A stretch of 64,000 nt of DNA, taken from assembly GCA_030550555.1 (NCBI GenBank), contig JAUQPD010000016.1, forward strand, positions 1-64,000. Reading direction: 5' to 3'. Under the pieces are notes generated by a model, which saw only the letters and a list, made by a program, of their open reading frames with translations, was not told the DNA's origin and did no database searches. Source of the stretch: Thermodesulfobacteriota bacterium (GTDB taxonomy: Bacteria; Desulfobacterota; Thermodesulfobacteria; Thermodesulfobacteriales; Thermodesulfobacteriaceae). The stretch's first letter is position 1. Each line of letters opens with the position of its first letter. The position numbers were made by a program, and so were the translations under genes. Shown here in pieces: positions 42-2,426 of the stretch.

Positions 42-1676
42 TTAGCGACTAATTCCACTCTCTACACAATGGACTGCACAGGCCATGCAGGGATCAAAGG
101 ATCTAATTACACGGTAAATCTCAAGGGGGAATTCAGGATCTCTGACTTCAATGCCAATTAGGGCCTTTTCGCAGGGGCCCATGACTCCTCTCTCATCACG
201 GGGGCTCATATTCCAGCCAGAGGGCGTAATCACCTGATAGTTTTTGATTGTACCGTCCTTAAGTAGAACTCTATGATAAAGGGCTCCTCTTGGGGCCTCT
301 GTAAGCCCTATTCCTTCATATTCACCAGCAGGTATTCTTTCATAGGTAACTCCCTCTTTAGTAAGTCCGCCCTTTTCAAGCAAAGTTTTTAAATGTTGAA
401 GTTCTTTGTTCGCAAGGTCTGCATAGTAGATGAGTTTTAGAGCCCTTGAGAGATGGCGACCCAAAACAGAGGATGGTAGAAGATTAGAAATGTATTGATT
501 TAATTTGGGGACGAGTTCTACTATCCTATGAATTGGAGAATGAGAGCTCACAGAGATAGCTTTCCAGAGGGAGAGACAAGCAGAAGAGCCTACTTCAAAG
601 GGTTTGTTCATAAAACGAGGTGCAGGCACATAGGTGTATTTTGAGTCCATAGAATCAGGCTGGATAGCCCTGCAAAGAGACTTAGCATACCAACCATGGG
701 TAAAATCCTCAAGAAGTTTCTCCCCTAAATATTGTGAGGACAAGTCTTTCGATACAAGCTCACCGTCAACAATTATTCCTCCTGGATGATAGGGCTTACA
801 ATTTTCAACTTCAGAAGGTAATTCAGGTACGACAAGAAAATTTTTATAGGATTGTCCAAGGACCAACCAATGAGGATAGAGGTCGCAGAGGGTGAAGAGG
901 TCTTGTAAGTAGATATTATTAAGGAATTGAGAGATATTATTGAGCAGGGGTTTAGCTTCTTCTATTAACAAAAATGCACTTTCATGAGACTGTTTTCCGA
1001 TAGAAGGAAATCTTCCTCCTCCAGGAAAGATACTAACAATATGAGGATAGCTTCCTCCAAAGAGTTCTATGAGTCTATTTACATTACGTTGTATATGTAA
1101 AGCAAAAAGCTGATGAATTAAAAAGGATAAGGCAATTTCTCTATCTGAGTGTAAATCAGGATGAGGCCTTATGGTCTTCGGGAGAAAGGGAAATCCTATA
1201 GGACCTTTAAGATAGAAATTTAAGGCCTTAAAAAGATCTCCACCATAGTTTAGGTCTTTACCATATATATTGCACAGGTTCTTTAGTTCATTCTCAGATA
1301 GTGATTGTAACACTGTAAAATCAATCCAATCAGGGAGACTCAGAAAATAAAAATGCACAAGATGGTCATGGATTGTTGAAAATATGATGAGAAGATTTCT
1401 GACTTTTTGATGAAGTGGAGAGATTTTCCAGCCATAGGCATTCTCAACAGCTCTTGCAGAGGCAATTGCATGAGCAACAGGACAAACTCCACAGATCCTC
1501 TGCACCATGGAAATAGCTTCCTTAGGAGTTTTTCCATTCAAGATGTATTCAATACCTCTCCACATTGTGCCACAGACCTTTGTATCAACAACGACTCCCT
1601 TTTCAAGTGATACTTCAACACGCAGATGCCCTTCAACTCGTGTGTGAGGTTCTATGACTAGCTTTGTGACACTCAT
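42..1676 (-). CDS. [NiFe] hydrogenase large (catalytic) subunit, group 1-like
   Basis: RICGVCPVAHAIASARAVENA (L1) and DPCMACAVH (L2) NiFe ligand motifs; short C-terminal extension after the final H. Confidence 0.95.
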   Translation of the reverse strand: MSVTKLVIEPHTRVEGHLRVEVSLEKGVVVDTKVCGTMWRGIEYILNGKTPKEAISMVQRICGVCPVAHAIASARAVENAYGWKISPLHQKVRNLLIIFSTIHDHLVHFYFLSLPDWIDFTVLQSLSENELKNLCNIYGKDLNYGGDLFKALNFYLKGPIGFPFLPKTIRPHPDLHSDREIALSFLIHQLFALHIQRNVNRLIELFGGSYPHIVSIFPGGGRFPSIGKQSHESAFLLIEEAKPLLNNISQFLNNIYLQDLFTLCDLYPHWLVLGQSYKNFLVVPELPSEVENCKPYHPGGIIVDGELVSKDLSSQYLGEKLLEDFTHGWYAKSLCRAIQPDSMDSKYTYVPAPRFMNKPFEVGSSACLSLWKAISVSSHSPIHRIVELVPKLNQYISNLLPSSVLGRHLSRALKLIYYADLANKELQHLKTLLEKGGLTKEGVTYERIPAGEYEGIGLTEAPRGALYHRVLLKDGTIKNYQVITPSGWNMSPRDERGVMGPCEKALIGIEVRDPEFPLEIYRVIRSFDPCMACAVHCVESGISR

Positions 1677-1681
1677 ACGAA

Positions 1682-2347
1682 CTATCCAATAACTGGTCTT
1701 CCTGCCCTGTCGATAGGGGGAAGAGTCTCAAAAAGCCGAAAATAGGCAATGAGAGCGACGAGAGCTTTTGCCTTTCCAGGGCATCCAAAAAGACTGATTA
1801 CCCTTTCAGTTCCGAGTAAGTTAGGAAGGCCAATAGCACAGGTAGGGCTTGGAGGAGTTGCGGGAAGACCTCCATTTACCGCACAATTTCCAAAGGCTAA
1901 GACGAGCCTTGCACCTTCAGAAATTCGCACAAGAAAATCTAAAACCGGCTCTCCAGAAACTCTCAAAACCCTACCCCGATCTCTATAGGGTATTGCTCCC
2001 TCTACTAGGAGTAGATAATCGCCTTGCTCCTCGGTGAGAATCCTTTTCAGGAGAGCCTCTGCAGAATGTCCAGTATCAAACATCAATAATTCATGATACT
2101 TGAGATCAACAAGGGCTGTCAGGAATTCAAAAAGAGGCCATTCCTTTGTTCTGATGAGCTTTTCAGAACAACCTGCACAGTCAAGGAGTTGAAGCCAAAT
2201 GAGAGATGGCTTTTTCTTGGAAAAACTAATTTCTAGCTTTCTCTTTAAGGAGGCAACCTCGGGTATCTTTAAAAAAGATGAGAGAAAATAAGAAAAGGTT
2301 TTAATGAACTCTTCTTTCGTAAATAGGGGAATCACTATGGGGAACAC
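1682..2347 (-). CDS. [NiFe] hydrogenase small subunit, C-terminally truncated (proximal-cluster domain only)
   Basis: WLQLLDCAGCSE, VEGAIP, FGNCAVNGG and FGCPG motifs; ends at ...PPIDRAGRPVIG* six nt before the large-subunit start. Confidence 0.92.
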   Translation of the reverse strand: MFPIVIPLFTKEEFIKTFSYFLSSFLKIPEVASLKRKLEISFSKKKPSLIWLQLLDCAGCSEKLIRTKEWPLFEFLTALVDLKYHELLMFDTGHSAEALLKRILTEEQGDYLLLVEGAIPYRDRGRVLRVSGEPVLDFLVRISEGARLVLAFGNCAVNGGLPATPPSPTCAIGLPNLLGTERVISLFGCPGKAKALVALIAYFRLFETLPPIDRAGRPVIG

Positions 2348-2354
2348 CTAAGAG

Positions 2355-2426
2355 CTGGGGGAGGAGGACTCGAACCTCCACTCGTGGATCCAGAGTCCAC
2401 TGTCCTGCCAATTAGACGATCCCCCA
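2355..2426 (-). tRNA. tRNA-Gln (anticodon CTG)
   Basis: Cloverleaf: TGGGGGA/TCCCCCA acceptor stem, GTGGA-CTCTGGA-TCCAC anticodon arm, GGAGGTTCGAGTCCTCC T arm. Confidence 0.95.

Follow-up and report, generated by a model that had tools for sequence, protein, structure and literature searches.

A group-1-type [NiFe] hydrogenase with a proximal-cluster-only small subunit and no twin-arginine signal at a contig end of a Thermodesulfobacteriota genome

The window analysed here, a stretch of 64,000 nucleotides from a Thermodesulfobacteriota bacterium, opens with the two subunit genes of a [NiFe] hydrogenase and a tRNA gene, all on the minus strand. Its base 1 is also base 1 of contig C21, one of the 58 contigs of a draft assembly. 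The features, in the order in which the strand is read, are these.

2354 to 2426, minus strand: tRNA-Gln(CTG), on the same strand as the hydrogenase, its 3' end 6 nt before the GTG start
1682 to 2347, minus strand: small subunit, 221 aa, with the single Pfam domain Oxidored_q6, ending in GRPVIG
2300 to 2317, minus strand: KEEFIK, residues 11-16, at the site of the twin-arginine motif (alignment with genus copies)
2168 to 2179, minus strand: C57-A-G-C60, proximal-cluster ligands 1 and 2 (alignment of small subunits)
1883 to 1885, minus strand: C155, proximal-cluster ligand 3, in GNCAVNGG (alignment of small subunits)
1781 to 1783, minus strand: C189, proximal-cluster ligand 4, in GCPG (alignment of small subunits)
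42 to 1676, minus strand: large subunit, 544 aa, full PF00374 (positions 1-508 of 508)
1482 to 1496, minus strand: L1 motif I61-C62-G-V-C65, Ni-Fe ligands (sequence and alignment)
78 to 89, minus strand: L2 motif C530-M-A-C533, Ni-Fe ligands (sequence and alignment)
45 to 68, minus strand: CVESGISR, the 8-residue C-terminal tail that follows His536, in place of the 15 residues of nearly all group-1 relatives (comparison with other large subunits)

The open reading frame of the small subunit begins with GTG; an alternative in-frame GTG, codon 5 at 2335, has AGGTG nine bases 5' of it and may be the real start. Pfam recognizes Oxidored_q6 alone, at residues 57-202, and the hydA profile TIGR00391 matches over positions 27-223 of 365 with a score under its curated cut-off. 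The nearest solved structures are group-1 small subunits (R. eutropha MBH and the E. coli Hyd-2 type), and the alignments to them end at residue 219. Where relatives continue past GRP as GRPxFAYGRxIHDHCERR, leading into the medial/distal FeS domain, the window protein terminates. A first-pass annotation of this DNA had described a small subunit with intact proximal-cluster motifs and no medial/distal domain, and both parts of that description hold: all four proximal-cluster cysteines are kept, and the C-terminal domain that would carry the medial and distal clusters of a group-1 enzyme is absent from the gene, together with the membrane tail. In the searched literature, which leaves out most subscription journals, no account of a group-1 small subunit with only one cluster was found. 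A single-sequence AlphaFold model (pLDDT 34) was set aside.

The same annotation had placed the ATG of the large subunit 6 nt downstream and had argued that no frameshifted remnant of the domain could lie between the genes. The junction reads GGA TAG TTCGT ATG, so the spacing is indeed close, though it is 5 nt, and a remnant would not fit there; in fact, none was found either between the two genes or elsewhere in the window. A genome-wide search for the missing domain (PF14720) returned a single match, in the canonical group-1 copy on contig C48, and thus no spare or split-off FeS domain elsewhere in this genome. A case for comparison is found in genome G093 (L263 630-1767, G093:C120), in which a 221-aa frame results from a frameshift and the FeS domain is intact in another frame; that break is either a sequencing error or a true mutation.

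The N-terminus of the small subunit is collinear with the Tat signals of the copies in the same genus, without large gaps, but LSRRDFLR has become FTKEEFIK. Both arginines of the RRDFL(R/K) motif found in the genus are thus lost, and no RR pair remains, as against an RRxF motif in 75 of 83 other small subunits. The twin-arginine signal expected on a group-1 small subunit is therefore missing, as the first reading had noted. Its suggestion of a cytoplasmic enzyme or a different electron partner gains support as a probable one: judged from its sequence, the hydrogenase probably works in the cytoplasm and passes its electrons through an altered exit.

In the large subunit, PF00374 is matched over its full length, all Ni-Fe cysteines are retained, and both L1 (RxCGxC) and L2 (DPCxxCxxH) are present, which upholds its earlier assignment to group 1. 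The C-terminal tail is unusual. It measures 15 residues after the terminal His in 58 of the 76 large subunits with a recognisable L2, and only 8 in the window protein. The natural range of hydrogenase C-terminal extensions is 3 to 68 residues, with none in sensors and several group-4 enzymes; when the extension was removed, E. coli Hyd-2 became inactive, and the membrane enzyme of R. eutropha did not (PMC7294309). Hydrogenases thus tolerate short tails. One detectable maturation protease, of the HycI type, is encoded in the genome, adjoining a hypF-like gene.

Other unusual hydrogenase genes came to light in further genomes. Eight group-1 large subunits, L263 and L264 (G093, G122) and L266-L271 (G072, G395, G232, G343, G210, G083), have an in-frame TGA at the second L1 cysteine (RxCGV-TGA-T), each followed by a hairpin, with a GGU loop like that of bacterial SECIS elements in six of the eight. 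This TGA possibly encodes selenocysteine; a 2026 review gives only UxxC positions for hydrogenase large (alpha) subunits (PMC13188914). In a related genus, a divergent group-1-like pair (L060, L061 and L062, in G312, G316 and G315) has the large-subunit gene before the small-subunit gene in all three cases, CSGD in place of the proximal CxxC motif, with Asp as a possible ligand, and a large subunit that ends at the terminal His. In G309, from a sister genus (L256 1902-3005, G309:C5), a group-1-type small subunit that has no Tat signal carries an HdrC-like domain fused to its N-terminus and follows HdrA-like and MvhD/FrhD-like genes; the FeS domain is retained, and no large subunit adjoins it. 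A match of the same size lies at G302:C53:4810-5352.

The pair bears the marks of protein-coding genes with a protected active site. The window large subunit keeps 50 of the 56 columns that are invariant in 47 group-1 large subunits at an overall identity of 38% (binomial 2e-15), among them C62, C65, C530, C533, H536, E15, R463 and D104, and the N-terminal domain of the small subunit keeps 19 of 22. With a narrower reference set, the large subunit keeps 70 of 92 invariants, as compared with about 95% or more in the other rows; the constraint is therefore real, though looser than among relatives. Relative to the C48 copy, the proportions of differences at codon positions 1, 2 and 3 are 0.50, 0.39 and 0.66 in the large subunit and 0.47, 0.30 and 0.62 in the small subunit, so that second positions are the least changed in both genes, a pattern that shows coding constraint. 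GC content by codon position is like that of ordinary genes. However, the extreme rate and the lost invariants (6 of 56, or 22 of 92 in the narrower set) would also fit relaxed selection. The acceleration is not genome-wide, as a neighbouring 96-aa protein is 85% identical to the version in genus-mates.

It could be argued from these features that the pair is decaying, being a duplicate of the C48 hydrogenase that has shed export and two clusters and is now losing its function. The intact C48 copy makes the pair redundant, its branch is extremely long, genus-mates keep no orthologue, and both the Tat motif and part of the C-terminal peptide have gone. However, at an identity of about 39%, neither frame has been interrupted in 765 codons, the catalytic and ligand residues are almost all retained, the second codon positions have changed least, and the gene order is intact with the spacing still at 5 nt. 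Decay is the foremost of the alternatives, but we consider it unlikely.

A second alternative is that the small subunit is split and that a ferredoxin-like or Hdr-like protein, whose gene would lie immediately past the contig end, provides the medial and distal clusters in trans. The contig stops right behind the large subunit, 41 nt after its last base, and the genes that follow are unreadable because the left edge of the window is the end of C21. Moreover, the copy of the same small subunit in the sister genus (G309), likewise without a Tat signal, forms a fusion with an HdrC-like domain and adjoins HdrA-/MvhD-like genes. Against this stand the lack of a second PF14720 domain in the genome and of an identifiable hydrogenase partner at the other contig ends. 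The first 200 bases overlap no other contig end, and the terminal genes of the other contigs include no cytochrome b, diaphorase, Hdr or maturation gene as an obvious continuation. The split arrangement is thus distinctly improbable.

The origin of the pair was approached through relatives and trees. The genome's other group-1 enzyme, on contig C48, comprises a small subunit, a large subunit and a cytochrome b-type protein. Relatives were sought by whole-genome search within the window's own phylum, and no close relative of the pair was found among 30 genomes of the family and about 400 sampled genomes of the phylum; the absence holds for these sampled genomes, in which the best identities are roughly 42% for the small subunit and 41% for the large subunit. 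The truncation is not shared with relatives, a check raised in the first-pass annotation, as the FeS domain is present in the other small subunits that were inspected. A peptide scan of a collection of genomic contigs, an insensitive one, gave only one group-3-type match, viral contigs contained no orthologue, and full-length matches on plasmids were at 36% identity or less.

In the tree of the small-subunit N-terminal domain, the window protein falls within the copies of its own genus, the group of genus and window having a support of 100/100, on an end branch of 2.76 as against 0.12 or less for the genus copies. In the concatenated tree, the pair groups with its own genus and a neighbouring genus (100/100) on an end branch of 5.2; constraining it to the genus alone gives a p-AU of 0.10, and the window row in these data has an unusual amino-acid make-up. 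In both trees, the branch is tens of times longer than those of its neighbours. A quick large-subunit tree that included distant groups put the window protein near the base of group 1, on a long branch. When the distant groups were removed, the best tree joining the window to the family lay 1.99 lnL above the free tree (p-AU 0.67), and placement with the genus or with a far group gave p-AU values of 0.37 and 0.42, so that none of the three is rejected. The large subunit alone is thus compatible with a place in the family, which it does not fix. We dropped the basal placement as a product of the long branch, since the family constraint is at least as likely and the small-subunit and joint trees lie in the family. 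The usual artefact does not draw a long branch in among short ones but does the reverse, and a within-family origin is therefore better supported. Read with care, the trees favour a hugely accelerated paralogue inside the clade of the family's Tat-exported group-1 hydrogenases over a new deep group. By both tree and identity, the nearest reference is E. coli Hyd-2 (group 1c), and the phylogeny leaves the pair outside the groups known for single-cluster small subunits.

A competing account of its origin is the horizontal acquisition of an ancient single-cluster group-1 lineage whose true relatives are unsampled. The pair is only about 39% identical to anything, a basal place is compatible with the large-subunit tree, and the locus adjoins a tRNA gene at a position that varies among genus-mates. 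The same tRNA lies in the same place in G298, where it is followed by an M16-type peptidase gene; in G289 the next gene, at a contig end, is Cas6-like; and in G128 a transposase-like fragment lies upstream of the gene for the same 96-aa protein, all three names being read from sequence. As the site varies in this way, an insertion of the hydrogenase pair beside the tRNA gene is plausible. Since the tRNA ends 6 nt before the GTG start, the hydrogenase mRNA may start as the 3' trailer of tRNA-Gln; a promoter scan at the locus gave nothing above chance. However, the small-subunit and concatenated trees nest the pair in the family at full support, contrary to where a long branch is usually drawn, and the closest matches by identity are the copy in this genome and those of its genus. 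This makes acquisition from outside the family more doubtful still than a split subunit.

The first-pass annotation had also offered a sensory or a sulfur-linked role. No link to sulfur was seen. If the enzyme were a sensor of H2 in the cytoplasm, like the regulatory hydrogenases (RH) of group 2b, it would share with them the absent Tat signal and the short large-subunit tail, RH being without the extension (PMC7294309). However, in R. eutropha HoxC the L1 residue is Gln and the tail is missing, where the window protein has His and a tail of 8 residues, RH carries three [4Fe-4S] clusters (PMC5665086), and the readable neighbouring genes include no kinase or regulator of that type. A sensory role is accordingly not favoured, and we would put its likelihood quite low. 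Lastly, an assembly or sequencing artefact that deleted the FeS domain is very improbable, for although the locus lies at a contig end of a 58-contig draft, divergence is just as high in the remainder of the two genes, the reading frame runs cleanly through the junction, and the Tat motif has gone as well. After a simple error, moreover, the domain would still be readable in another frame, as it is in G093.

On balance, we favour a lineage-specific, neofunctionalised cytoplasmic derivative of the family's Tat-exported group-1 [NiFe] hydrogenase with a single-cluster electron exit. In terms of the first-pass description of a divergent hydrogenase with an unusual electron exit, the exit is retained and the deep divergent lineage gives way to a within-family paralogue. 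The exported enzyme would have been duplicated and then have evolved fast in one lineage. The sequences show that the twin arginines have changed to KE, that the small-subunit gene ends at the domain border, with loss of the medial and distal clusters and the membrane tail, and that the cleavable peptide of the large subunit is shortened. They also show that selection maintained the four cysteines of the proximal cluster and the Ni-Fe site with the invariant residues around it. The dimer would stay in the cytoplasm and be matured by the resident Hyp proteins, and its proximal cluster may exchange electrons directly with a soluble partner docked at the site of the lost domain, as in HoxY and the group-4 small subunits. 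The fused small subunit of G309 is a parallel that supports one part of this reading, the re-use of the small subunit by this family inside the cell.

With group 1c-like enzymes (E. coli Hyd-2 HybO/HybC and the C48 copy), the pair shares sequence kinship in both subunits, the order of small before large subunit, L1 and L2, the proximal ligands and the collinear N-terminus. It differs from them in lacking the twin arginines, the medial/distal FeS domain and the C-terminal membrane tail, in its 8- rather than 15-residue large-subunit extension and very long branch, and in that no cytochrome b gene is visible at a locus where the contig ends so soon.

Single-cluster small subunits are known from other groups. 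HoxY of the group-3d NAD-reducing HoxY/HoxH enzymes is soluble, Tat-less and has the proximal cluster only. The FGNCAVNG stretch of the window protein resembles a soluble-hydrogenase subunit in L033, a contig titled Candidatus Nealsonbacteria on which there are two sets of divergent soluble-hydrogenase genes, including NuoE/F/G-like subunits. Such sets are unusual in that group, and the contig is possibly misassigned. However, the window large subunit belongs to group 1 and is separate from R. eutropha HoxH in the tree, and no diaphorase genes occur among the readable neighbours or at contig ends. In the group-4 enzymes (Ech, Hyc) and in complex I (NuoB), a single-cluster small subunit passes electrons to another subunit. 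The window pair differs from these, too, in its group-1 large subunit and in having no genes for complex-I-like membrane subunits near the locus. The likeness to group-2b HoxB/HoxC lies in the cytoplasmic location, probable for the window enzyme, the missing Tat signal and the short or absent extension. HoxB/HoxC, however, combine a three-cluster small subunit with Gln in L1, in contrast to the missing C-domain and L1 His of the window pair.

We advance somewhat more tentatively, at a little under even chances, the broader proposal that this is a working group-1-derived hydrogenase which recently lost its Tat signal and its medial and distal clusters and whose proximal cluster takes part directly in electron exchange in the cytoplasm. 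A single bacterial family would then have arrived independently at the one-cluster design known from HoxY and group 4. Until now, the role of the proximal cluster alone and the need for all three clusters have been tested mainly by mutation. Here, the loss of a domain, the loss of export and the shortening of a maturation peptide come together in what appears to be a traceable recent derivative, with an intact canonical copy in the same cell. If the proposal is true, the pair would let nature's own experiment show how an exported hydrogenase with three clusters becomes a soluble module with one.
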